Shown here: in pieces, positions 14,364 through 30,686 of the stretch | How the letters are laid out: every line of letters starts with the position of its first letter | Position numbering within the stretch: the first letter of the stretch is position 1 | NCBI GenBank assembly: GCA_913061275.1 | Contig: CAJXSR010000027.1 | Location: forward strand, 1 to 46,378 | DNA: 46,378 nucleotides | DNA from: an uncultured Paracoccaceae bacterium | GTDB taxonomy: Bacteria; Pseudomonadota; Alphaproteobacteria; Rhodobacterales; Rhodobacteraceae | Reading direction: 5' to 3' | Notes under the pieces: generated by a model | What the model saw: only the letters and a program-made list of their open reading frames with translations | The model's database searches: none | What the model was told of the DNA's origin: nothing | Translations under genes and position numbers: made by a program

Positions 14364-15545
14364 ATGATCAAGAATTTAAACCCTGACGCAAAAGCTGGTC
14401 TTTTGCTTGCCCTCGCCGCCCTAATGGGGCTGTTATTTGAAAATATCGGTGCCTTGCGTCCTTTATACGATTCATTCCTAAATGTGTACTTTACAGTGGC
14501 AATAGGAGAAGCAGGCATATCAAAACCTGCCTTGTTGTGGATCAATGATGGGTTGATGGCAATCTTCTTTTTATACGTTGCTTTGGAAATAAAACGAGAG
14601 GCTTATGAAGGGTCTTTGTCTACTTGGAAACGTGCGGCTTTACCTGTTTATGGTGCATTTGGTGGCCTCGTAGTGCCAGCCTTAGTGTTTTTGTACATTG
14701 TGGGCTGGGATACCATAGAGGCACGTGGTTGGGCCATACCTGCTGCTACTGACATTGCTTTTGCACTGGGCGTATTAAGCCTATTTGGTAATCGCGTTCC
14801 AGCCGAACTTAAAACATTCCTATTGGCATTAGCTGTAGTTGATGATCTCGCTGCCATTATGATTATTGCAGTCTTCTACACAGCACAATTATCTATATTA
14901 GCCTTGGGGCTTGCAGCACTTGCAGGAATAGGACTGTTTATATTGAACTACATGGGCGTTAAACGTCTAACCCCATATGTATTGCTGGGCGCTGTGTTGT
15001 GGTGCTGTGTCTTGAATTCTGGCGTACACGCCACGTTAGCAGGTGTTGCACTTGGTTTTGCAATTCCTTTGTCACGTAACGCTAAAGGAAAAGCACTAGC
15101 AATCGAATTTGAACATGCATTGCATCCCTGGATCGTATTTATGATTATGCCTTTGTTTGCCTTCGCAAATGCAGGCGTACCGTTAGAGGGATTAAGTTTC
15201 GAGTTGTTGCTGCAACCCCTGACATTGGCAATCATTCTTGGATTGTTCTTAGGAAAGCAAATAGGTGTGTTCGGTTCTGTCTGGTTGGCTATTAAATTTG
15301 GTTTTGCAGAGGCACCACAAAAGGGATCTATGGCACAGCTCTACGGTGTCAGCTTGCTCGCAGGTATTGGCTTTACTATGTCCTTGTTTATTGGAGCCTT
15401 AGCATTCTCAGATCAGGATCATCAAACTTTGGTTCGAATTGGTGTAATATTCGGTTCATTACTCTCTGGTATTACAGGTGCGGTTGTTCTCACATTTGCA
15501 AAGAGGCGTGATGTGGGTGCCGCACTTGCACCAAATGCAATCTAA
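14364..15545 (+). CDS. nhaA: Na+/H+ antiporter NhaA
   Basis: This 393-residue membrane protein with about twelve segments has the NhaA signature sites: ATDIAFALG (ion-path aspartate, D133 equivalent in E. coli) and LALAVVDDLAAI (the paired aspartates, D163/D164 equivalents). The conserved LYGVSLLAGIGFTMSLFIG segment is near the C-terminus. NhaA expels sodium in exchange for protons, giving salt and alkali tolerance. The ATG at 14364 is chosen because it precedes the family N-terminus; the ribosome site is weak. The next gene, a voltage-gated sodium channel, begins 5 bp after its stop, so the two are probably co-transcribed. Confidence 0.95.
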   Translation: MIKNLNPDAKAGLLLALAALMGLLFENIGALRPLYDSFLNVYFTVAIGEAGISKPALLWINDGLMAIFFLYVALEIKREAYEGSLSTWKRAALPVYGAFGGLVVPALVFLYIVGWDTIEARGWAIPAATDIAFALGVLSLFGNRVPAELKTFLLALAVVDDLAAIMIIAVFYTAQLSILALGLAALAGIGLFILNYMGVKRLTPYVLLGAVLWCCVLNSGVHATLAGVALGFAIPLSRNAKGKALAIEFEHALHPWIVFMIMPLFAFANAGVPLEGLSFELLLQPLTLAIILGLFLGKQIGVFGSVWLAIKFGFAEAPQKGSMAQLYGVSLLAGIGFTMSLFIGALAFSDQDHQTLVRIGVIFGSLLSGITGAVVLTFAKRRDVGAALAPNAI

Positions 15546-15550
15546 AGGCA

Positions 15551-16339
15551 GTGGATCAAGCTATGATTACTAGTCTGAAGCGCTTTATTGAAGCACCCGC
15601 AACGGTAAACTTTATCCTTAGTGTGATCCTTTTTAATGCGGCCTTGTTGGGGATGGAAACCTCCCCAACACTTATGTCAAAAGCAGGGGCAATAATCCTT
15701 ATTCTGGACAGTTTATGTCTGACCATATTCGTGATTGAAATCACTATCAAATTACTGGTCTATAGGGTTAGCTTTTTCAAAACGGGTTGGAATCTTTTTG
15801 ACTTAGTAATTGTTGCAATTGCTCTGCTGCCATTTGGGCAAGGCTTGTCGGTTTTACGCGCTCTTCGAGTACTGAGGTTGCTGCGCGTGGTTTCAGTATC
15901 ACCAAGTTTGCGCCGTGTTGTGGAAGGTTTTATCGCGGCATTGCCAGGCATGGGATCTGTCGTTATTTTGATGAGCCTAATATTCTATGTCAGTTCTGTA
16001 ATCGCGACCAAGATCTTTGGACATGCGCATCCTGAATTTTTTGGTTCGTTAGGAGGATCCGCTTATTCATTGTTCCAGATAATGACGCTTGAAAGCTGGT
16101 CAATGGCGATCGTACGTCCAGTTATGGAAGTACACGCTTATGCATGGGTTTTTTTCATTCCCTTTATTTTAGTAACGACATTTTCTGTAGTAAACTTGTT
16201 GGTTGGTTTAATTGTGAATTCAATGCAAGACGTCGGCAACAAAGAGGCCGCAGGCGAAACAACAGACTACCGAGATGATGTCTTAGTACGGTTGGGAGCA
16301 ATTGAAAAACAACTTGATGCGTTGGCCCCAAAAGACTGA
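15551..16339 (+). CDS. bacterial voltage-gated sodium channel (NavBac family)
   Basis: This 262-residue protein is a single six-segment voltage-gated channel subunit, expected to form a tetramer. S4 carries arginines every third residue (R103, R106, R109, R112 in VLRALRVLRLLR). The pore has the NavBac sodium filter TLESWS at 179-184 in FQIMTLESWSMAIVRP, nearly the NavAb sequence, followed by the S6 helix (about 200-226) and a short polar C-terminal tail. Such channels admit sodium on depolarisation; in some alkaliphiles they aid motility and pH balance. The start is GTG at 15551, with AAAGG very close; an ATG at 15563 is an alternative that loses four residues. It follows nhaA by 5 bp. Confidence 0.93.
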   Translation: MDQAMITSLKRFIEAPATVNFILSVILFNAALLGMETSPTLMSKAGAIILILDSLCLTIFVIEITIKLLVYRVSFFKTGWNLFDLVIVAIALLPFGQGLSVLRALRVLRLLRVVSVSPSLRRVVEGFIAALPGMGSVVILMSLIFYVSSVIATKIFGHAHPEFFGSLGGSAYSLFQIMTLESWSMAIVRPVMEVHAYAWVFFIPFILVTTFSVVNLLVGLIVNSMQDVGNKEAAGETTDYRDDVLVRLGAIEKQLDALAPKD

Positions 16340-18752: not shown

Positions 18753-21700
18753 ATGGAAAAGAGCCTTTTTCAGTTTATCTGGAAATATTCAAAAAAAAGC
18801 CAGTTGGTTCTATTAGCTGTCACTCTTCTAACTTTCCCAATTCTCTACGTTTCGTTGGAGTTACCTAAACGTATTATAAACGATGCCATTGGGGGATCTG
18901 GGGAAGACGTTTCTTTCTTGGGAGTAACATTAAGTCAGATCCATTTTTTGATGGTTCTATGTGTTGGTTTTCTATTGGCAGTATTGGTCAATGGGTTATT
19001 GAAGATGCGGCTTAACACCATGAAAGGTGTGTTGGCGGAACGTTTATTACGGCGATTTCGCTTTCAACTTTTAACCCGCATAATGAGGTTTCCACGCCCG
19101 TATTTCCGCACCACAAGCCAAGGTGAATTGGTTTCTATGGTGACGTCCGAAGCGGAACCAATGGGATCATTGATGGGGGATATGCTGTCTCAACCTGTGT
19201 TTCAGGCTGGGCAGATGTTGACAATTCTTGCGTTTCTATTTGCACAAAGTTTCTGGTTTGGGATGGCGTCCATAGCGTTGATCCCATTGCAAGCATGGAT
19301 CATCCCAAAATTACAACGTCAGATTAATTTTTTGAACAAAGCAAGGATACAAGAAGTCCGTAAATTGGCCGCTGATATTGGCGAAACAGCAGCAGGTGTC
19401 AGCGATATTCGCACGAACGGCGGATTGCGTCACAGAATGTCATTGTTTTCCAACCGTTTGGGGAATTTGTTCGGCATTCGTTTTGAGATTTATCAAAAGA
19501 AGTTCTTCATGAAGTTTCTGAACAATTTCATTAATCAATTAACGCCGTTCTTTTTCTATTCTGTTGGTGGGTATTTAGCGATCAAAGGAGAGATCACAGT
19601 AGGTGCGTTGGTTGCAGCGCTCGCAGCATACAAAGACCTGTCTTCCCCTTGGAAAGAGTTGCTGAGTTATTATAACCAGACCCAAGATATGGCCTTACGG
19701 TGGGAGGTAGTGACTGAACGCTTTGCACCTAAAACGCTGGTGAAAGACACATTGTTTGACGGGGCACCTAAGGCGTTTACAAGTCTTAATGGAGATATCG
19801 ATCTGAAAGGTGTTACTGTCTATGATGAAGAAGGGCATTCGGTACTTGAAGATATTAACCTGACCATTCCGAAAGGCGCACGTGTCGCAATTAAGACAAA
19901 CAATGAAACTGCTGCGTTAGCATTTGCCGATGTGTTAACGCGTGAGATTATCCCACAAAGGGGATCCGTACAGATAGCAGGGCATGGATTAAATGATTTG
20001 CATCAGACCGTGGTGGCCAATCGCATTGGATACGCCAGTTCCAAACCTTATATTTTTCAAGGTACGCTTGGTGAAAATCTATTAATGCCCTTTAATCATG
20101 AGCCGGCACTTGGCGCGGATACCTCAACAAATGTGATGGATTGGCAGGAAGAATCTGCGCGTTCTGGTAACAGTGTCGACCCATTTGAAGTTGATTGGGT
20201 CGCACCAAAATTGGCAGGATTCCAAACGTGTGATGATATTAAAGAGTGGTGGTTTCAGCTGACTGAAGCGATGGGCATCGACGATACTATGGTGCGTCGT
20301 GGGCTGCGATCACGACTTGAACCAGATACCCAACAGGAGCTGATGGATGCAATTGTACGGCTGAGACCCGAAATAGCGAAGCGGTTATCAGTAGCGGGTG
20401 TGGACGATATTGTGCATTCCTTTCACCCAGAAAAATTCAACCCAGTATCTCCTTTGGGTAGTAACCTGCTTTATGCTGTTCCTACACGATTGCTGACACA
20501 AATAGCGTTGTCACAAGAGGGTAATTTTGTGCAGATGTTGCGGGACGAAGGAATTGTAGAATATCTTGCGCAAATGTCTGCCAGTCTAATCGTAGGGCTG
20601 ACAGCAACATTTGGAACGGATGGAACAGATCACCCGTTGTTTCGCCGATTGAATATGGATGAAGATCTATATCAACGGCTTGGAGTAATCGTTACAAAAA
20701 GACGTGACGTTGGTGATATTGGATTGTCGCCCGAAGATTTCGCATTGATGCTAACTGTACCTTTTGCGTTTTCGGCCGAGCAGATGGGGCCAGCGTTTAG
20801 CGATGCGTTTAAAGAACGTATATTGGAAATTCGGATGAAGAGTGCTGCCGATATGGTGGCAAAATTGGATGGTTTGTTTCGGCCAATTGATCCACAGCAT
20901 TATCTTCCCGTTATGACGGTACTTGGAAATGCTATTTTCGGGCGGGTTTCCAACATGGCAGGCGCGCGAGAGAAATTGATTGAAGATATTGTTGTTGATG
21001 TCCTAAGAGAACACGGTTTAAGGCGATTAGTGGCACAATCCATCTATGATCTAGCAACGACCCAAGGCGGGGAAAACCTACCAGCCGTATTTAGGGAACG
21101 CGTGGCGTTCAGTCGTGCTGGGATCAAGAAACCTGACATCTTGATTCTTCGTGATGCGTTGGCTAGCCATGATGGCGATGCCCGCTCTTTGATGCGTGAG
21201 CGCATTAGTGAATTGATGCCTGACGCCACCAAAATTTTCATTGAGAACCAATTCCACAATCCTGAAAGCTACGATTTGTTCGTAGAAATAGTGGATGGGC
21301 GTATTGATGGAGTGGCACGGCAAGATGACCTACAAGATGAAGATGCGCGTCAGGATTTGAAGCATAAGTTACGTGTGGTAGCGCAAGCAGAATTATTTGC
21401 AGGGCTGGATCGTAAACAACAGCGCCTGCTCGCGTTTAGTGCGCAATGGTACAAAGTTAAAGCGAGGCATGTGATTTTTGAAACAGGGCAAGAAGCGGAT
21501 GCTTCCTATCTGTGCGTAAGGGGTTTGGCTGGATTATATTGGGCAGAAAATGAAGACAATAAGCTCTTGGTATCAGAAATTGCACCTGGGCGATTGATCG
21601 GAGATTTGGCAGTTATCCAAAATGAACCACGCCTATTAGATTTAATCGCCATTGAAGACAGTGTGTTCCTGCGACTTGGGGCTAGTGAGTTGTTGGCTGT

Positions 21701-21851
21701 GATCGAAAATGATGCGATGGTTGCAACAAGCTTATTGCGTTCGGTTGCGGGCCATTTGACAGACACATCGGCAAACCTGCGGTCAATACGGGCATTTGCT
21801 GTTGAACGTGGGATAGATTTCACTGAATTGGATGAAATGGATCAGGGCTAA
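18753..21851 (+). CDS. ABC exporter-like membrane protein with degenerate, interrupted ATPase domain and C-terminal cyclic-nucleotide-binding-like domain
   Basis: This 1032-residue protein starts with an ABC type-1 exporter membrane domain (about residues 5-325). The nucleotide-binding domain starts near 345 but the Walker A position reads AIKTNNETAALAF (379-391), with no GxxGxGK[ST]. The Q-loop equivalent PYIFQGTLGENL is near 432. A roughly 300-residue insertion, mostly helical in style and without recognised motif, follows before a degraded signature and Walker B: FRERVAFSRAGIKKPDILILRDALASHDG (780-808), lacking LSGGQ and the catalytic glutamate. The C-terminus (about 876-1005) resembles a cNMP-binding domain, with RLIGDLAVIQNEPR (947-960) at the phosphate-cassette position but D in place of the usual E. 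ATP hydrolysis by this chain is unlikely. AAGGA precedes the ATG. A membrane-domain paralogue converges on it from 23555. Confidence 0.82.
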   Translation: MEKSLFQFIWKYSKKSQLVLLAVTLLTFPILYVSLELPKRIINDAIGGSGEDVSFLGVTLSQIHFLMVLCVGFLLAVLVNGLLKMRLNTMKGVLAERLLRRFRFQLLTRIMRFPRPYFRTTSQGELVSMVTSEAEPMGSLMGDMLSQPVFQAGQMLTILAFLFAQSFWFGMASIALIPLQAWIIPKLQRQINFLNKARIQEVRKLAADIGETAAGVSDIRTNGGLRHRMSLFSNRLGNLFGIRFEIYQKKFFMKFLNNFINQLTPFFFYSVGGYLAIKGEITVGALVAALAAYKDLSSPWKELLSYYNQTQDMALRWEVVTERFAPKTLVKDTLFDGAPKAFTSLNGDIDLKGVTVYDEEGHSVLEDINLTIPKGARVAIKTNNETAALAFADVLTREIIPQRGSVQIAGHGLNDLHQTVVANRIGYASSKPYIFQGTLGENLLMPFNHEPALGADTSTNVMDWQEESARSGNSVDPFEVDWVAPKLAGFQTCDDIKEWWFQLTEAMGIDDTMVRRGLRSRLEPDTQQELMDAIVRLRPEIAKRLSVAGVDDIVHSFHPEKFNPVSPLGSNLLYAVPTRLLTQIALSQEGNFVQMLRDEGIVEYLAQMSASLIVGLTATFGTDGTDHPLFRRLNMDEDLYQRLGVIVTKRRDVGDIGLSPEDFALMLTVPFAFSAEQMGPAFSDAFKERILEIRMKSAADMVAKLDGLFRPIDPQHYLPVMTVLGNAIFGRVSNMAGAREKLIEDIVVDVLREHGLRRLVAQSIYDLATTQGGENLPAVFRERVAFSRAGIKKPDILILRDALASHDGDARSLMRERISELMPDATKIFIENQFHNPESYDLFVEIVDGRIDGVARQDDLQDEDARQDLKHKLRVVAQAELFAGLDRKQQRLLAFSAQWYKVKARHVIFETGQEADASYLCVRGLAGLYWAENEDNKLLVSEIAPGRLIGDLAVIQNEPRLLDLIAIEDSVFLRLGASELLAVIENDAMVATSLLRSVAGHLTDTSANLRSIRAFAVERGIDFTELDEMDQG

Positions 21852-22358: not shown

Positions 22359-23555
22359 CTAAGGGTTCAAAGCAGGTTTTGGAAAAAACTTAAATATCTC
22401 TCGATAGCGAACGCGTACATCCTCAAGAGCTTGATAGTATCTAAACAATTCTTTAATTGGTGCGGCCATTTCTTTGTGTGCTGCAAGAACAGCGACTAGA
22501 GCACCTAAAGTAATGCGTTCTTCTATAACAAAATATCCACCTAATGCATAAAAAAGAAATGGCGTTAGCGACATCAAAAAATTATTAAAAACCTTTATAA
22601 AGAATTTCATTTTATGAATTTCACGACGTATCCTTTCTAATTCTTTTAGGCTCACTGAAACTTCATAGATCTCTCGTGTAGATGATATTGTCCCATCAAG
22701 TTGTCCACCTAGTTTACTACCTAAGTTGCGAACTTCTTGAATACGTTCCCGTGCCAAAACGTTCACATACCTCTGGAAGCGCGGAAGCAATACTAATTGT
22801 ATAGGAAGAATTGCAAGTGCTGCTGCTCCAAGTATTGGGTCTTTAACAATCATAAATGTCATAATTGTCATGAATGTCCCAATTTGGAACACAGGCAATG
22901 TTAGTATGTCAGCGGCAAAACCACCGATGGGCTCCACTTCTTGTGATAATATTGGGATGATATCTGTTTTTCGATCAGCCGTTTTATCACCACGCCATTG
23001 CCTATAAACCAATAATCTCAGGCGGCGTAAAAAACGTTCAGCAACACGCCCTTTGAATACATTTAGCCAATATTTATGCACACCGTTCACAATAATTGCT
23101 AATAAGTAGAGACCGCATAATACCAACAAAAACCTGACCTGTGAAAATTCATAGTCTCTATAAGTAAAAGGGAAATGGTTTGAATCTAATGCATTATTGA
23201 TAATCTGTTTTGGCAACTCCAATGTACCGTAAAGAATTGGCATTGATAACAAGCTAGCAATAAAAAGTAAGATCTGTTGTTTTTTAGATGTATCAAAAAC
23301 AAAGCGGAATAGGTTTTTATCTAAACCGCGAATATATCCAGAAAAGGCAATCTTTGGGGTTACTGATTTGTAGCGGTAATAGCTTACTGCACTTTTAGTA
23401 AATAAATACGTAACAACAATTATTAAGAAAATTGGCGCAATAAGAATGACAAAATGCAATACTGGATGAAACCAGTCTGGCGCATTTTCATCAATTTTGT
23501 ATTCAAACAATAACGCTATCTTGTGAACTATATCGTGGTAACTTTCCATTTGCAT
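22359..23555 (-). CDS. ABC exporter membrane-domain protein without an ATPase domain
   Basis: This 398-residue protein is a paralogue of the first third of the protein at 18753. Residues about 85-390 are an ABC type-1 exporter membrane domain; SKKQQILLFIASLLSMPILYGTLELPKQIINNAL corresponds to SKKSQLVLLAVTLLTFPILYVSLELPKRIINDAI in the neighbour. It has an additional N-terminal part with one membrane segment (about 30-54). It ends at FFPKPALNP, precisely at the linker where the nucleotide-binding domain should start. The start at 23555 has AGGTAG upstream; 23549 is an alternative. The gene is visibly more AT-rich than the neighbour. It could be a natural half-protein partner or a truncated gene whose ATPase domain was lost by rearrangement at the repeat-filled gap. 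Confidence 0.78.
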   Translation of the reverse strand: MQMESYHDIVHKIALLFEYKIDENAPDWFHPVLHFVILIAPIFLIIVVTYLFTKSAVSYYRYKSVTPKIAFSGYIRGLDKNLFRFVFDTSKKQQILLFIASLLSMPILYGTLELPKQIINNALDSNHFPFTYRDYEFSQVRFLLVLCGLYLLAIIVNGVHKYWLNVFKGRVAERFLRRLRLLVYRQWRGDKTADRKTDIIPILSQEVEPIGGFAADILTLPVFQIGTFMTIMTFMIVKDPILGAAALAILPIQLVLLPRFQRYVNVLARERIQEVRNLGSKLGGQLDGTISSTREIYEVSVSLKELERIRREIHKMKFFIKVFNNFLMSLTPFLFYALGGYFVIEERITLGALVAVLAAHKEMAAPIKELFRYYQALEDVRVRYREIFKFFPKPALNP

Positions 23556-23645
23556 TTCTACTACCTGTAAGCTTCATTTTTAGGGATTAGACAGAACGAT
23601 ATTATTCAGAGCCGCCTCTGTCGAAAGTATTACGATTTTTGAATT

Positions 23646-23675
23646 CTAATGTGCCATCTTATAAAGATGGATTAG
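23646..23675. terminator. hairpin between the ABC-like gene and the copper operon
   Basis: CTAAT-gtg-CCATCTT-ATA-AAGATGG-ATTAG forms a stem of 7 plus 5 pairs. A second imperfect stem follows to the right (GCCCCCCACATTA with TAATGGGAGGC, about 23674-23703). They lie 14-70 bp past the end of the leftward copper operon and could end it, though no clear T-run follows. Confidence 0.35.
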
Positions 23676-23716
23676 CCCCCCACATTACTTTAATGGGAGG
23701 CCGTATTGGGGGAGGT

Positions 23717-24493
23717 TTATTTTAGATCAGTGACAACTAATTTACCCTTTAGTCGTTCAGCAACAAACTCAATGTTGTCGCCTGCATTCATCTTTTCAAG
23801 CATAGCTTTTTCAGCAACACGGAATACCATTGTCATTGCAGGCATACCTAAGTTTGCTAGTTTTTCATGGATGATTGTGACTTTGCCAGATTTAGCATTA
23901 ACCTTCTTAACAACACCTTTGGTATAAGATACCGCTGCAGCTTGACCAGCATCAGAAACCTCTATTGAGCTGTGCATACCAGCTTCGTAATGACCAGGTA
24001 TCAGGCAGGCGAACTCAAATGTGCCCGTTTTCGTAAATGACCATATGATTTCGCCAAACTGGCCTTCTTCAAGGCGCACAGAGTTAGGGTCGTCGTGTTC
24101 CATTTCTGGAAACTTCTCCATGATAGCTTTGTGCTCAGCATTTTTTTCTACGGTATCAAGAACGAACTCATGTTCTAATTCACCCTTGTTCAGAATTGCG
24201 AAGCGAACCGTTTCACCAGCTTTGATTTCAAGGGACTTTGGTTCAAAAACCATATCACCATCATCCGTTTCAATCATAGAAACATCGATGGTACGCGTTA
24301 CCATATCAACCATACCTGGCATACCTGTTGCCATTTCGTGATGGCCTGCTTCGCCATGGCCTTCAGAATGACCATGAGATCCATTTTCAACTGTTTTGGT
24401 TTTACCTTCGTGCCCACCCGTATGAGAGCCACTGGCATAAATCGGGCTTGCTAGTGTTAATATTAAGGCTGTTGAGAGTAGTTGCGTTTTCAT
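23717..24493 (-). CDS. exported cupredoxin-CusF fusion copper-binding protein
   Basis: This 258-residue periplasmic protein has a signal peptide (1-20), a His-rich linker (about 24-52), a cupredoxin domain (about 65-180) with type-1 copper ligands H108, C163, H168 and M173 (CLIPGHYEAGM), and a C-terminal CusF-like domain (about 188-258). In CusF, copper(I) or silver(I) is held by H36, W44, M47 and M49; here the equivalents are H209 and MPAMTM (217-222), with Met where CusF has the capping Trp. The protein probably buffers periplasmic copper and hands it to an export or oxidation system. GGAAAA precedes the ATG. It is the last gene of the leftward copper operon. Confidence 0.88.
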   Translation of the reverse strand: MKTQLLSTALILTLASPIYASGSHTGGHEGKTKTVENGSHGHSEGHGEAGHHEMATGMPGMVDMVTRTIDVSMIETDDGDMVFEPKSLEIKAGETVRFAILNKGELEHEFVLDTVEKNAEHKAIMEKFPEMEHDDPNSVRLEEGQFGEIIWSFTKTGTFEFACLIPGHYEAGMHSSIEVSDAGQAAAVSYTKGVVKKVNAKSGKVTIIHEKLANLGMPAMTMVFRVAEKAMLEKMNAGDNIEFVAERLKGKLVVTDLK

Positions 24494-24535
24494 AGTTTTT
24501 CCTTACTTGGATAAATTAGATGTCGAGTTGCTCGA

Positions 24536-25897
24536 TCATCCTTTTAAGATTGGTTTCTTTGTGATCTGGGTTTTTGGGCTGTTCATGCTTGCATGTTCGG
24601 GCAGCTCACCTGTCCATTCATATGCTTGCGTACCAGGAGGGTTTTCATACCAACCAGGGTCAGAGTAATCATCGGCACCGATGCCTTCGCGCACTTTAAC
24701 AACCGAAAACATTCCACCCATTTCAATCGGGCCATGTGGCCCCCAACCTGTCATCATTGGAACGGTATTGTCGGGTAACTCCATTTCCATCACACCCATG
24801 TCTGCCATGCCAGCCGTTCCCATCGCCATAAACTCAGGTTGGAACTTTTGAATTTTTTGCGACAAGCGGCGTTGGTCTGTTCCAATAAAAGTTGGCACAT
24901 CATGACCCATTGCATTCATTGTATGATGTGACTTGTGGCAATGGATTGCCCAATCACCGAGGTGAACGGCATCAAATTCAAATGCACGCATTCCGCCGAT
25001 AGGTAAATCAATCGTCACTTCTGGCCAACGTGCAGCTTCTGGAACCCACCCACCATCCGTACAGGTGACAGAGAAATCATAGCCGTGCATGTGGATCGGG
25101 TGATTGGTCATCGTCAGGTTCCCCACCCGAATACGAACGCGGTCATTATGATTAACCACGATTGGATCAATATCGGGAAAGATGCGACTGTTCCATGTCC
25201 ACAAATTGAAGTCGGTCATCGTCATGATACGCGGAACATAAGTGCCAGGTTCAATATCAAACGCATTCAGCATGAATACAAAATCGCGATCGACGGGCAT
25301 GAATGTTGGGTCTTTAGGATGCACGATAAACATTCCCATCATACCCATCGCCATTTGCACCATTTCATCGGCATGTGGGTGATACATAAACGTACCGCTT
25401 TTGGTCAAATCGAACTCATAAACAAACGTTTTACCAGGCGGAATACCTGGGTGACTAAGGCCGCCAACGCCGTCCATACCCGATGGTAAAATAAGACCGT
25501 GCCAATGAACTGTCGTGTGTTCTTGCAACTTGTTCGTCACATAGATACGAACGCGATCCCCTTCAACGGCTTCAATAGTTGGCCCAGTAGATTGGCCATT
25601 ATAACCCCAAAGATACGCTGTCATCCCATCTGCTAGCTCACGCTCAACGGGTTCTGCTACAAGGTGAAATTCTTTCACCCCGTTGTTCATACGAAACGGT
25701 AATGTCCAACCGTTTAGTGTCACAACAGGCTGATAGTCAGGCCCTGTTGGTGGGTGAAGTGGCCCCTGAGTTGAGGCACTCTCCATGACAGCGGCTTCGG
25801 GTAGTCCCGAGTTGGACGTGGCCCCCCAAGCACTTGCTGACAAAAGGGTCGCCCCTGCGGTTGCACCTGCTCCTAAAAGTTGTCGTCTATTTAACAT
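24536..25897 (-). CDS. Tat-exported multicopper oxidase (copper resistance)
   Basis: This 453-residue enzyme starts with a twin-arginine signal (NRRQLLGAG, cut near ASAWGA). The copper-cluster ligands are all visible: HWHG at 131-134, HPH at 173-175, HPIHMHG at 266-272 and HCHKSHH at 319-325, with the axial Met region after it. It should oxidise Cu(I) to the less toxic Cu(II) in the periplasm, as CueO and PcoA/CopA do. After residue 350 there is a methionine-rich tail (MAMGTAGMADMGVMEME and MMTGWGPHGPIEMGGM), a likely extra copper(I)-binding region. AGGA precedes the ATG at 25897. It lies between the TolC-like gene and the cupredoxin-CusF gene in one operon. Confidence 0.93.
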   Translation of the reverse strand: MLNRRQLLGAGATAGATLLSASAWGATSNSGLPEAAVMESASTQGPLHPPTGPDYQPVVTLNGWTLPFRMNNGVKEFHLVAEPVERELADGMTAYLWGYNGQSTGPTIEAVEGDRVRIYVTNKLQEHTTVHWHGLILPSGMDGVGGLSHPGIPPGKTFVYEFDLTKSGTFMYHPHADEMVQMAMGMMGMFIVHPKDPTFMPVDRDFVFMLNAFDIEPGTYVPRIMTMTDFNLWTWNSRIFPDIDPIVVNHNDRVRIRVGNLTMTNHPIHMHGYDFSVTCTDGGWVPEAARWPEVTIDLPIGGMRAFEFDAVHLGDWAIHCHKSHHTMNAMGHDVPTFIGTDQRRLSQKIQKFQPEFMAMGTAGMADMGVMEMELPDNTVPMMTGWGPHGPIEMGGMFSVVKVREGIGADDYSDPGWYENPPGTQAYEWTGELPEHASMNSPKTQITKKPILKG

Positions 25898-25951
25898 TGT
25901 TTAATCCTTTCGAATAAGAGGCGCTGATTTGAATAACAGCAACATCCATTT

Positions 25952-27370
25952 TCATTCTTCGCTTTGAGAGGTTTTGCCGCCATAAATGGCAGCGCGCAGG
26001 TTTGCCTTAGCTAACCAGAAATCCCGCTTTGCTTCGCCTGCTTCCATTTCAGATTCCAGTGTTTCCCTGGCATCTTCCAGCAGTTCGAAAGTATTGGTTA
26101 TCATGCCGTTATTACTTAAGAGAGCAGCATCATCGACAATCTTGCGAAGTGGCAAAACGGTATCACGGTAGTGTTTCGCAATCTGATATGTACCGTGATA
26201 GGCAACTTCCGCAGTACGGGCTTCAGTACGTACATTCACAGCCATTTCTGCAACCACATTAGCAGAACGCAAATAATCTAGTTCTGCTTTACGCAGTCTA
26301 GCTTTGCCCGTGTCATAGATCGGAATTGCAAATTCTAATTCCACCTGTGGCGTTGTATTGCTTGTCGTGTTGCCACCATCAGACTCGCGTTCTGTTTCAA
26401 ATCCTGCAAGCAATTCCAAGTCTGTTACAAATCGCGATGCATCCGTCATTCCATATGACTTAGCCGTTGCTTCCAAACCGAGCTTGGCGACCTTTAACTC
26501 AGCACGGTTTTTGAGCGCATCTATTTCTATCGATCTGCGACGAGGAATTGATTTGGGCAAACGCGGCAACGCGTTAGGAACGAAGTAATCCACATCTGTG
26601 CCCCAAAGCCCCATCAACTGCGTTAACTCGGCTTTAGCACCAACGGCTTCTAAACGCGCTTTTGCTGCCTGCGCTGCAAGATCAGCATTAAAAGCATGCT
26701 CTCTTGCTTGGCTGCCTTTATCTAACGAGCCAGCCAGCCCAAGACTTTGTGCTAATTCCGATGATGCATCAGATGTGGCACTCGCACTTTTTAGATTTCC
26801 AACAACTTCGAATGCAGATACTGCGTTTATCCAAGCTTGGCGTGTTTCTGATGCCAGCTTGAGGGTTTCATTAACGGCATTTAATTGGGCCTTTTTGAAT
26901 TGTGTATCTGCTAATGCAACGCGTTGTTTACGTGTTTTAGCATCCAAAAGATTGGTTGCAAACATACCCTCGATTGCTCGAAACACACCAAGCTCTGGTG
27001 CTGCTATCCCAAAAATACCTATTGATACGATTGGGTTCTCTGGTAGCGATTCCTGCCAAACTTCAGTAGCTGATACACCAACTTCTGCATATGCAGCCTG
27101 TAAACCTTTATTATTCAATAAAGCTACTTGAACAGCGGTTTCCGCCGTTATGGTCTTTTTGTGAACCATTGCGTGTACACGTTTGGCATTTGCATCAGCT
27201 TGTTGCTGCGACTGTATCCAAACAGTTTGCTTGCCAATAGATTTGTTTGTTCCATCAGTTACAGCATCAAAACCCGCAGCTTTGTTTGTGTACTGGGTTG
27301 GAACAGCTGTTGCACAAGCCCCTAAAAGAAGCGGCAAAGCAATGATCGCTGGTCTATAATAATTACGCAT
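25952..27370 (-). CDS. TolC-family outer-membrane efflux lipoprotein (CusC-like)
   Basis: This 472-residue protein has a lipoprotein signal (LPLLLGAC) and two TolC/OEP halves made of long amphipathic helices, with typical ARLEAVGAKAELTQLMG and AELDYLRSANVVAEMA stretches. It should form the trimeric outer-membrane duct of a tripartite efflux pump. The start at 27370 (MRNYY) is chosen because the stop of the upstream lipoprotein gene overlaps it as TAATG; the frame extends to 27385 with five extra residues. No RND pump or periplasmic adaptor is present in the window, so its partner must lie elsewhere or the channel works with an unknown partner. Copper is inferred from the operon. Confidence 0.9.
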   Translation of the reverse strand: MRNYYRPAIIALPLLLGACATAVPTQYTNKAAGFDAVTDGTNKSIGKQTVWIQSQQQADANAKRVHAMVHKKTITAETAVQVALLNNKGLQAAYAEVGVSATEVWQESLPENPIVSIGIFGIAAPELGVFRAIEGMFATNLLDAKTRKQRVALADTQFKKAQLNAVNETLKLASETRQAWINAVSAFEVVGNLKSASATSDASSELAQSLGLAGSLDKGSQAREHAFNADLAAQAAKARLEAVGAKAELTQLMGLWGTDVDYFVPNALPRLPKSIPRRRSIEIDALKNRAELKVAKLGLEATAKSYGMTDASRFVTDLELLAGFETERESDGGNTTSNTTPQVELEFAIPIYDTGKARLRKAELDYLRSANVVAEMAVNVRTEARTAEVAYHGTYQIAKHYRDTVLPLRKIVDDAALLSNNGMITNTFELLEDARETLESEMEAGEAKRDFWLAKANLRAAIYGGKTSQSEE

Positions 27371-27603
27371 TATTGTGTCCCCCAACCAGAGTTCTGTTGT
27401 TCATTTGACTTGCGCCAATCTTGCGGATCAGTTGCATCGCGATGTTCATAATCTTGAACAACAGGTCGATATTGCACAGGGCGATTAGGCGCATCTAATG
27501 ATGCAGGTTGGGATAATGCCGTAACATCAGGAAGCGGCGTGGGTGTTGGCGAACACGCCACGAGGATGATTGGAATACATCCCACAATGAGTGTGGTTTT
27601 CAT
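27370..27603 (-). CDS. small lipoprotein, function unknown
   Basis: This 77-residue protein begins with a signal ending in the lipobox IILVAC and continues with a Pro-rich then polar, acidic region. No domain is recognised. The stop overlaps the TolC-like start by one base (TAATG), so the two are translationally coupled. AGGTATC lies before the ATG. A role as an accessory to copper efflux is inferred only from its position. Confidence 0.75.
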   Translation of the reverse strand: MKTTLIVGCIPIILVACSPTPTPLPDVTALSQPASLDAPNRPVQYRPVVQDYEHRDATDPQDWRKSNEQQNSGWGTQ

Positions 27604-27688
27604 TTTAGATACCTATAGTCATAAATTTCAGTGGCTAAGGGGCAAGGCCCACAGCATATGCATGCTTACTCAAGCAATGTTTTGAAAT

Positions 27689-28066
27689 TTAAAGACTAGG
27701 TGGACGCATCAGGCGGGATTTACCAGCCGATGTCATTTTACTAATGGGCAAAGCGATATGAGCACGAACTTGATCTACTTCTGAAAAATTGTAATTCTCA
27801 ACAAGTGCTGCTGAAGAACACATACCAGTCTCGCAACACCCCACACCCTCATGTTCATGATTGGTGCTATCAAGTGATGTCATATCCATCGCAGAAATAT
27901 CGTGAGCATGATCAGATTGGGCAAGGTTCGTTCCATTATGAATAGATGTACCATTATCTGTCATGTTTGCATGTGCTGCCATTGGAAATGAAAGCGCAAT
28001 AGCCATAACGGTAACAAGTAAACTTGCCGTTTTAACAATGTGATTTATGATGCTTTTGCTTCTCAT
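27689..28066 (-). CDS. small exported protein of the copper operon, unknown function
   Basis: This 125-residue protein has a strong signal peptide (cut near AAHAN) and a polar mature part rich in His, Asp and Met, with a cysteine cluster CCETGMC (about 77-83) that could bind metal. It ends in RLMRPPSL. Small exported proteins of this kind sit beside copper genes in other proteobacteria; it may be a DUF2946-like protein but the match is not certain. It is the first gene of the leftward operon. The ATG at 28066 has no good ribosome site, and the nearest -10-like box is only 7-8 nt upstream, so the mRNA may be leaderless. Confidence 0.72.
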   Translation of the reverse strand: MRSKSIINHIVKTASLLVTVMAIALSFPMAAHANMTDNGTSIHNGTNLAQSDHAHDISAMDMTSLDSTNHEHEGVGCCETGMCSSAALVENYNFSEVDQVRAHIALPISKMTSAGKSRLMRPPSL

Positions 28067-28073
28067 GTCTTTT

Positions 28074-28103
28074 TGGATATTGCCAATCAGCTTTGAATGT
28101 CAA
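28074..28103 (-). promoter_or_regulatory. possible promoter of the leftward copper operon
   Basis: On the minus strand TTGACA (28103-28098) and TATCCA (28079-28074) are spaced by 18 bp. If used, transcription would begin at about the ATG at 28066, giving a leaderless message. Only sequence similarity supports this. Confidence 0.3.
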
Positions 28104-28153
28104 GTAAGAATTCGGTTTGATAAAGAGATTGTTATAATTATTCTTTTAGCATC

Positions 28154-28184
28154 TTGACCTTCCATCTACTGGAAGGCTTATATG
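28154..28184 (+). promoter_or_regulatory. CueR/MerR-type copper-responsive promoter and operator for copA
   Basis: TTGACC (28154-28159) and TATATG (28179-28184) are 19 bp apart, the stretched spacing typical of promoters controlled by MerR-family activators. The spacer contains the dyad CCTTCC-N7-GGAAGG (28158-28176), matching known CueR operators on copper ATPase genes. It is 37 bp before the copA start. No cueR gene is in the window, so the regulator must be elsewhere. Confidence 0.75.
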
Positions 28185-28220
28185 ATATGTTGAACATTAA
28201 AACTTCAACAAGGCTCAACA

Positions 28221-30686
28221 ATGGACATTCACAAAACCGCCATATACCCCATTGAAGGTATGACTTGTGCATCATGCATTAGCCGTGTTGAAAAATCTTT
28301 AAAATCAATACCTAGCATTATTAAAGCTTCGGTTAATTTAGCAAATGAAACAGCACTCGTTACATACGAATCAAATGATCCAACAGAATCCGTATCAAAA
28401 ACATTAGCACTAATTGGATACCCAATTATTACGGAAAACCTAACCTTTGAGATCGAAGGTATGACTTGTGCTTCATGTGTGGGGCGCGTTGAAAAATCGA
28501 TATTAGCAGGCAATGGTGTATTGCAAGCCTCTGTTAATCTTGCAACAGAGACGGCATTGGTAAAATTTGCAAATGGTACAATTACCCCATCAGAAATTAT
28601 TGGCTTAATTTCTAAATCTGGGTACCAAGCCAAATTAAAATCAATCAATCAAACGAAAGATAATGACCGTAAGGCAAAAGAAATTGTTACCCTTGGGCGC
28701 CAAACTTTTATTGCTGCTCTACTAGCACTTCCAGTCTTCGTTATTGAAATGGGAGCGCATGTAATTCCTAGCATGCATCAATTGATTAGCAATACCATTG
28801 GTCTTGAGAATAGTCGGTTATTACAATTTGTTTTGACAACGATTGTTCTATTTGGCCCTGGATTGCGATTTTATACAAAAGGGTTTCCTGCTCTATTTAG
28901 AGCTACTCCGGATATGAATTCACTGGTGGCTCTTGGCACTTCTGCTGCATATGGGTTTTCGCTTGTTGCAACATTTGCACCAAGCTTACTCCCATCAGGT
29001 ACTGCAAATGTATATTACGAAGCAGCGGCAGTTATTGTTGTTTTAATCTTACTTGGCCGCTTCTTAGAAGCCCGTGCTAAAGGTCGCACAGGACAAGCAA
29101 TTCGTAAACTTGTTGGTCTACAGGCAAAAACAGCACGTATTGAACGCCATGGTAAAGTTGTAGAAATTGCATTAGAGTCCATCATTCGCGACGATGTTAT
29201 TCATGTGCGTCCAGGGGAGAAAATTGCTGTAGATGGCATTGTACTCACTGGGAATAGTTTTGTTGACGAAAGCATGATTACTGGCGAGCCTATTCCTGTA
29301 CAAAAAGTAGATGGGGCTGAGGTTGTTGGTGGTACAGTCAATGGAACTGGTGCACTTACGTTTAAAGCAACAAAGGTTGGCAACGATACAATGCTTGCCC
29401 AAATCATCCAAATGGTTGAACAGGCGCAAGGTGCTAAACTACCAATACAAGGATTAGTAGATAAGATTACCGCATGGTTCGTACCTGTTGTGATCCTAGT
29501 TGCTGTATTTACGATAATGGTTTGGTTCTTATTAGGCCCAGAACCAGCTTTAAGTTATGCACTCGTCGCAGGTGTTTCCGTTTTGATAATAGCCTGCCCA
29601 TGTGCAATGGGTCTTGCAACTCCTACCTCCATTATGGTTGGCACAGGGCGTGCAGCAGAAATGGGTGTTTTATTTCGTAAAGGTCACGCTTTACAATTAT
29701 TGCATGAAGCAACCATCGTCGCTGTTGATAAGACAGGTACACTAACAGAGGGACGGCCAAAACTTACGGACATGCATGTTGCAGATGGGTTTGACGAAGC
29801 GCGTATCCTACGCTTGATTGCAGCCGTTGAAAGCACTTCTGAGCATCCTATTGCACAAGCAATTGTTCAAACGGCTAAGGAGAAAAAGTTAGAGCTGCCC
29901 ACGATAAAAGATTTCACATCGATCACTGGCTATGGAGTACAGGCCACCGTTGAGGGCAAAAAACTCCTTATCGGTGCGGACCGCCTGATGATCAAAGAAA
30001 ATATAGCATTATGGCAGCTAGCCGATATAGGGCAAAAATTAGGGCAATCTGGAAAGACACCGCTCTATGCAGCTGTAGACGGCGAAATAGCAGCGGTTAT
30101 TGCTGTTGCGGATCCAATCAAGAAAAGCACGCCTGCTGCAATCAACGCATTGCATGATCTTGGGTTGAAGGTAGCAATGATTACTGGCGACAATCAAGGA
30201 ACAGCAAATGCAATCGCAAAAGAGTTAGGGATAGATCATGTAGTGGCTGAAGTTCTACCAGAAGGTAAAGTCTCAACCATAGAAAAACTACGTTCGGAAG
30301 GTAACAAATTGGCTTTTGTTGGCGACGGAATTAACGATGCTCCTGCACTTGCCGCCGCAGATGTTGGAATAGCGATTGGGACAGGCACAGATGTTGCAAT
30401 TGAAGCCGCTGATGTTGTGTTGATGTCTGGTGATTTAAAAGGTGTTGTTAATGCATTTGACGTAAGCCAACGCACTATGAAAAACATCAGGCAAAATCTG
30501 TTCTGGGCATTCGGATATAATACACTTCTAATTCCCGTTGCAGCAGGGGTTATATACCCATTTAGCGGTCTATTACTATCACCTGTTCTAGCTGCAGGTG
30601 CGATGGCTTTATCGAGTGTATTTGTACTAACAAATGCGTTGCGATTGCGTTGGGTACAACCCGTTCTAAATGAAAAAAACATATAG
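28221..30686 (+). CDS. copA: Cu+-exporting P1B-type ATPase
   Basis: This 821-residue ATPase has two N-terminal heavy-metal domains with GMTCASC at 13-19 and 80-86, the CPC membrane metal site at 459-461 in [13 protein letters not shown], the phosphorylated D503 in DKTGTLT, the actuator TGEP, the SEHPI nucleotide motif and GDGINDAP. These are the marks of P1B-1 pumps that move Cu+ (or Ag+) from cytoplasm to periplasm. The ATG at 28221 has AAGG about 8 nt upstream. It is driven by a CueR-type promoter and divergent from the periplasmic copper operon; a cytochrome c gene follows by 8 bp. Codon use is AT-rich compared with the tam genes. Confidence 0.96.

Follow-up and report, generated by a model that had tools for sequence, protein, structure and literature searches.

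A family of exporter-fold proteins with a degenerate ATP site and a cNMP-type ligand domain in Alphaproteobacteria

Exporters with altered ATP sites and the present gene

ATP-binding cassette (ABC) exporters are textbook ATP-driven machines, and in the eukaryotic sulfonylurea receptor (SUR) and CFTR, both of which bind ATP, the exporter fold serves as a regulator or a channel and not as a pump. The gene described here is found on contig CAJXSR010000027.1 of an uncultured Paracoccaceae bacterium (assembly GCA_913061275.1, positions 18753-21851) and encodes an exporter-fold protein with a degenerate ATPase domain and a C-terminal domain of the cyclic-nucleotide-binding (cNMP) type; the whole stretch of DNA analysed, 46,378 nucleotides, is hereafter called the window and is the entire contig, from a genome of 3.39 Mb. 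The closest known systems are the type IV ABC exporters (TM287/288, TmrAB, PCAT1 and MsbA), from which the window protein differs by lacking the Walker A, signature and Walker B consensus, by carrying some 290 extra residues in the helical subdomain and by its C-terminal cNMP-type domain, and its family differs from them in having a membrane part that is more conserved than the ATPase part. The protein may also be likened to SUR and CFTR by its exporter fold, and SUR2 chains are among its structure matches.

Homologues were collected as 180 reading frames aligning over at least 700 residues (14 shorter ones were left out); the 152 distinct sequences among them were divided into clade A with more than 42% identity to the window protein (n = 97, window included) and clade B, the remaining distant relatives (n = 55). 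A degenerate nucleotide site in an exporter fold is shared with exporters such as TAP, TmrAB and MRP1, but in these one site stays canonical (PMC7756269), while none of the 97 clade A sequences has an intact site. Another likeness is to HetC of Nostoc, an ABC exporter whose cNMP-type domain is reported to be needed in vivo and to bind ppGpp (PMC10986499). In HetC that domain is N-terminal, and the protein also has a C39 peptidase and an ATPase catalytic residue that is essential, whereas in the window family the domain is C-terminal or separately encoded, no peptidase domain was found (no Pfam match to C39 in the 1032-residue protein at E up to 1) and the ATP motifs are lost. The binding of ppGpp by HetC is a warning that the ligand of the window family may not be a cyclic nucleotide.

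ATP site, insertion and selection

The open reading frame starts with ATG and continues for 1032 codons without an internal stop. A Pfam search placed ABC_membrane at residues 39–290 (E 3e-18), ABC_tran at residues 365–461 (E 0.003, under its cut-off) and cNMP_binding (PF00027) at residues 902–987 (E 1e-11, 44.7 bits against a cut-off of 27.5). In sequence searches of the PDB, canonical exporters aligned through their membrane and ATPase parts with residues 62–445 and 765–851, and the residues in between stayed unaligned. An exporter membrane fold is present together with a nucleotide-binding domain (NBD) fold spanning residues 345–860, the latter predicted to be intact in the structure model. 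By fold and descent the family is kin of the ABC exporters, yet it falls outside the sequence definition of an ABC ATPase.

In the window protein the Walker A position, residues 378–389, reads VAIKTNNETAAL. The pattern GxxGxGK[ST] was found in none of the 97 clade A sequences, window included, and in none of the 55 of clade B, while the looser GxxGxGK was absent from clade A (0/97) as against 22/55 in clade B. At the signature position the window protein has LPAVF instead of the LSGGQ consensus, the distant relatives being of an LS..Q type (L in 53/55, Q780 in 50/55). Walker B residues 797–804 read LILRDALA, with RD at 800–801, and the Walker B Asp and catalytic Glu were not recovered, position 800 in clade A being Asp in 53 of 97 sequences and Glu falling outside the seven commonest residues at 801. 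As judged from these sequences, the P-loop and the signature are lost in clade A. Clade B keeps the P-loop glycines G382 and G387 (51/55 each) and a Lys or Arg at position 388 (50/55), and a Glu follows the Walker B Asp position in 31/55. After 388, where Ser or Thr is usual, 46/55 have Asp or Glu, and the Walker B Asp position (800 in window numbering) is Asn or Ser in 42/55 and Asp in 4/55. An acid appears to have been gained beside the P-loop (389) where the Walker B acid (800) is gone, which looks like an exchange of metal-binding acids and may represent a rebuilt metal site. One frame, L032, has a membrane part 57% identical to that of the window protein and an ATPase part only 29% identical, and is possibly a chimera.

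The distance from the P-loop position to the signature position is 394 residues; a canonical exporter encoded in this genome has 104 there, which gives the roughly 290 extra residues. This insertion is common to all 97 clade A sequences and the 55 distant relatives, the span from N442 to L776 being 322–349 residues over the 152 distinct sequences (window included). It has no Pfam match, and its predicted fold has no Foldseek match in the PDB. In the AF2 model of residues 440–775 (pLDDT 87) the order of elements is repeated, and profile-profile comparison matched the first extra unit to the next at 98.5% in clade B and 92.7% in clade A, with 20 column shuffles per clade each giving 2.9% or less. 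By profiles and model, the insertion holds part of the ATPase helical region in duplicate. The initial annotation of this gene had described degenerate Walker A, signature and Walker B motifs in an interrupted ATPase domain, with a comparison of homologues as a check; the loss of motifs is confirmed, no clade A homologue has an intact Walker A, and the large extra stretch stands, although "interrupted" describes the domain less well than "enlarged", the insertion being family-wide and duplicated within itself. A third group (clade C, L198 to L202) has the same ATPase part and insertion joined to a strongly diverged membrane part.

Compared with its closest homologue (90% identity) the gene has a ratio of non-synonymous to synonymous substitution rates (dN/dS) of 0.088 overall, with 0.033 for the membrane domain, 0.058 and 0.016 for the two ATPase halves, 0.116 for the insertion and 0.099 for the cNMP-type domain, and drift is confined to the final 27 residues (0.80); these values come from a single pair, since all other pairs with the window gene were saturated at synonymous sites and gave no ratio. 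The earlier statements that the gene is under selection and not dead, and that a cNMP-binding-like domain ends the protein, hold with the intact frame, this overall ratio and the Pfam match. The ATPase part (insertion excluded) was more conserved than the membrane part in only 2 of 4656 clade A pairs and 40 of 1485 clade B pairs, against 319 of 435 pairs in a control of 30 orthologues of a canonical exporter. The conservation is inverted relative to the canonical exporter measured, the membrane part being the most constrained; it carries invariant charged residues, and 46 membrane residues are invariant in alignment A1.

A sister gene in the window, convergent with the gene under study and located in a copper-resistance cluster, encodes a protein that is like the window protein in its membrane domain but without ATPase domain, insertion or sensor, as are other NBD-less proteins of copper loci (named "ABC transporter transmembrane domain-containing protein" or "ABC transporter ATP-binding protein"). 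It keeps 40 of the 46 invariant membrane residues, four other copper-locus or near relatives keep 34–40, and four proteins of a more distant membrane-only group keep 26–30. As these residues are kept without an ATPase domain, much of the membrane domain is constrained independently of one.

Ligand domain, gene neighbourhoods and possible function

The cNMP-type domain is fused in 96 of 97 clade A proteins versus 6 of 55 in clade B. A profile search (cut-off E 1e-8) found a separate cNMP-type frame in 49 of 49 unfused clade B loci, the profile having been built with some of the same loci and so not being fully independent; in 47 the frame lies on the same strand, -250 to 1500 bases downstream, and 42 show the canonical pattern of the phosphate-binding cassette. 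Within clade A, Gly950 and Arg960 of the cassette do not vary (all 96 ungapped rows have them; the remaining row has a gap there). In such domains the cassette Arg holds the phosphate and the cassette Glu the ribose. A membrane-domain tree (59 chosen rows, midpoint-rooted, with canonical exporters and clade C on long branches) showed clade A as monophyletic (100/100) and nested in a larger set (98/90), the four non-A members of which are fused clade B proteins with motifs partly kept or lost. The simplest reading of the sequences for the window lineage would be a separate sensor, followed by fusion, followed by loss of the ATP site.

When analysing 40 clade B loci, genes of the Glycos_transf_1 type were found in 27, of the GT28_C type in 23, of histidine phosphatases in 15 and of a deacetylase-like type in 14 (family names were assigned from one representative each). 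For Glycos_transf_1 the base rate (584 matches in 172.5 Mb, or 0.07 per 20 kb) gives about 2.6 expected loci against 26 observed among 38 whole-genome clade B loci. The clade B loci that have none of the four families include every fused one read there. In clade A, a relative 72.6% identical on a Sulfitobacter dubius plasmid (L148) is preceded, all on one strand, by genes for a nucleotide-sugar dehydrogenase, four glycosyltransferases, a phosphatase and a deacetylase. At 20 of 79 clade A loci, all in one subgroup, a gene for a CPBP-type intramembrane protease comes next on the same strand (in 17 of the 20 it overlaps the exporter-like gene), then accD and a folylpolyglutamate-synthase gene, and another subgroup has a divergent DUF3307 gene upstream (26 of 79); neither the protease nor the DUF3307 gene adjoins the window gene. 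The CPBP subgroup spans L045 to L110 (example protease at L195:10101-10985), and the protease is a possible functional partner there. A class III cyclase gene occurs within about 12 kb in loci of Rhizobium, Sinorhizobium and Mesorhizobium, and a cyclase gene lies two or three genes upstream in seven clade A loci (the single one scanned has dCache and HAMP domains); the window's own genome has one class III cyclase gene.

We give about even chances to the reading that the exporter fold is no longer powered by ATP and that its state is set by the ligand of the cNMP-type domain, perhaps as a regulated gate or flippase for glycolipids. In this scheme ATP would no longer be hydrolysed by the ATPase-fold domain with its helical repeats, which would instead keep the two halves joined and tell the membrane domain which state the ligand domain is in; when a nucleotide-like ligand binds, the passage would open or close, with the substrate running downhill or being flipped. 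Judging by the gene neighbourhoods of distant relatives, the ancestral substrate would have been a surface glycan or glycolipid. The architecture is common to many relatives, a hint at a pump fold that a signal now operates in place of ATP, and the earlier proposal of a signalling or gating device built from an exporter fold is overall partly supported. A broader proposal is tentative and probably goes too far, namely a class of ligand-gated, ATP-independent flippases or conduits in which cNMP-type control replaced the ATP power stroke, with a triplicated ATPase helical segment, a stepwise origin (separate sensor, fusion, loss of the ATP site) and NBD-less sisters working in copper loci.

Several observations weigh against a ligand-set, ATP-independent exporter fold. 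Degenerate ATPase halves under such strong selection must have a role; they may bind nucleotide without hydrolysis, and a partner exporter with a working ATP site may exist. Among the more distant NBD-less relatives overall only 26–37 of the 46 invariant residues are kept. Position 951 of the cassette is Asp in 59 and Glu in 37 clade A sequences, and the window protein has Asp where Glu is canonical. A further fused distant protein, L153, is placed elsewhere on the tree, so that fusion was not a single event but took place at least two times in the family. Glycosyltransferases were found at only two of 82 clade A loci (L148 and L093), and the substrate may therefore have changed, while cyclases near the loci of the 38 clade B genomes occur at about the base rate (4 loci against some 2.4 expected from 542 matches).

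Two alternatives are about equally unlikely. The protein could act as a receptor or scaffold in the membrane without moving any substrate, its exporter fold regulating other membrane proteins as in the sulfonylurea receptor, and the lost ATP motifs, the sensor that is always found, the SUR2 matches and the position of clade A mostly outside glycan loci would all fit, with the CPBP-type protease as a possible client; however, it is the membrane domain with its invariant charged residues that is most conserved, the distant relatives lie in loci of glycan synthesis, where a flippase is the usual role, and the protease gene is limited to its subgroup. It could instead still be driven by ATP, as an exporter whose nucleotide site is unusual or as the half of a heterodimer whose partner carries the working site. 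Degenerate sites are normal in heterodimeric exporters (PMC7756269), the ATPase fold is intact in the model, and clade B keeps G387, Lys/Arg 388, Q780 and, in part, the catalytic Glu, but all 97 clade A sequences lack a P-loop, the conservation pattern is opposite to that of a canonical exporter, and no exporter ATPase was found among the recurrent neighbour families that were annotated, which are not all of them.

That the helical insertion has an enzymatic or binding role of its own, with the exporter fold mainly as a membrane anchor, is improbable: it is large, family-wide and without Pfam or PDB match, and clade C keeps it despite its diverged membrane part, but its conservation falls below that of the membrane domain in both clades. 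Progressive decay of the gene is hardly credible, even though every ATP motif is lost, the gene is patchy in its genus and one of 80 contig loci (L103) has it as two frames, from a frameshift or a sequencing error, since the frame is open over 3.1 kb, full-length members occur in many genera and dN/dS is 0.016 to 0.12 in every domain except the final 27 residues. A selected family that keeps the fold and drops the ATP site, with relatives retaining parts of it, forms a natural series on roles of the ATPase domain beyond hydrolysis and bears on the ability of the membrane half to function in the absence of ATP. With a cNMP-type partner always present, a control ligand can be tested for directly, and the glycan loci offer a guess at the substrate.

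Feature coordinates, distribution and adjoining genes

Table 1. Features of the exporter-fold gene and its sister gene in the window
Feature	Residues	Position	Strand	Basis or remark
Complete gene (exporter fold, degenerate ATPase domain, cNMP-type domain at the C terminus)	1032 aa	18753..21851	+	
Transmembrane domain	1-330	18753..19742	+	Pfam ABC_membrane, pairwise identities, structure; most conserved part of family
ATPase fold, N-terminal half	345-445	19785..20087	+	Ends at ENL motif
Degenerate Walker A position	381-389	19893..19919	+	Without P-loop
Family-wide insertion	446-735	20088..20957	+	N442-L776 span, AF2 model
First extra repeat unit tested	500-645	20250..20687	+	Profile-profile; own ENL-like motif near 571
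Second repeat unit tested	650-790	20700..21122	+	Profile-profile, model; ENL-like motif near 726, continues into signature helix
ATPase fold, C-terminal half	736-860	20958..21332	+	
Degenerate signature position (LPAVF)	776-780	21078..21092	+	
Degenerate Walker B position	797-801	21141..21155	+	
cNMP-type (CRP-like) ligand domain	880-1005	21390..21767	+	Pfam 902-987, E 1e-11
Phosphate-binding cassette position	946-966	21588..21650	+	
Related gene with same membrane domain, no ATPase domain		22359..23555	-	Outside the system, in copper-resistance cluster

The gene is accessory: 11 of the 33 genomes available for the genus, counting its own, contain a full-length-type match. Its own genome also encodes another full-length copy (48% identity) and two membrane-domain-only copies, one of them inside the window. 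With the alignment A1 profile 135 of 385 genomes of the class matched at E 1e-30, some to part of the protein only, and in a sample of the phylum 32 of 398 genomes matched at E 1e-40, all but one from the same class (Alphaproteobacteria, 31/32); the sole match outside it covers the membrane part on a short contig. The best 80 loci of named genomes belong mainly to the Roseobacter group (Ruegeria, Sulfitobacter, Shimia, Phaeobacter and Tateyamaria) and also include some Granulosicoccus and other gammaproteobacterial metagenome bins, possibly through transfer or an error of binning. Bins labelled Granulosicoccus (L039, L040, L044 and L093) carry relatives of 65–71% identity, which suggests transfer to Gammaproteobacteria or mis-binning. 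The family is common in Alphaproteobacteria, yet the annotated copies examined bear generic names only, those given by NCBI on public plasmids being the two quoted above for copper-locus proteins or "cyclic nucleotide-binding domain-containing protein".

The copper-resistance cluster (22359-30686) contains genes for a CusF/cupredoxin protein, a multicopper oxidase, an outer-membrane efflux protein, a weak CopL-like match and a heavy-metal P-type ATPase. A similar arrangement of membrane-only and copper genes is found on plasmids of Phaeobacter, Sulfitobacter and Thalassospira, and the multicopper oxidase of the cluster is 81% identical to ones on Phaeobacter and Sulfitobacter plasmids typed as conjugative. 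Elsewhere in the window a small ion-channel gene (Pfam Ion_trans, 15551-16339) is located directly after an NhaA sodium/proton antiporter gene (14364-15545).
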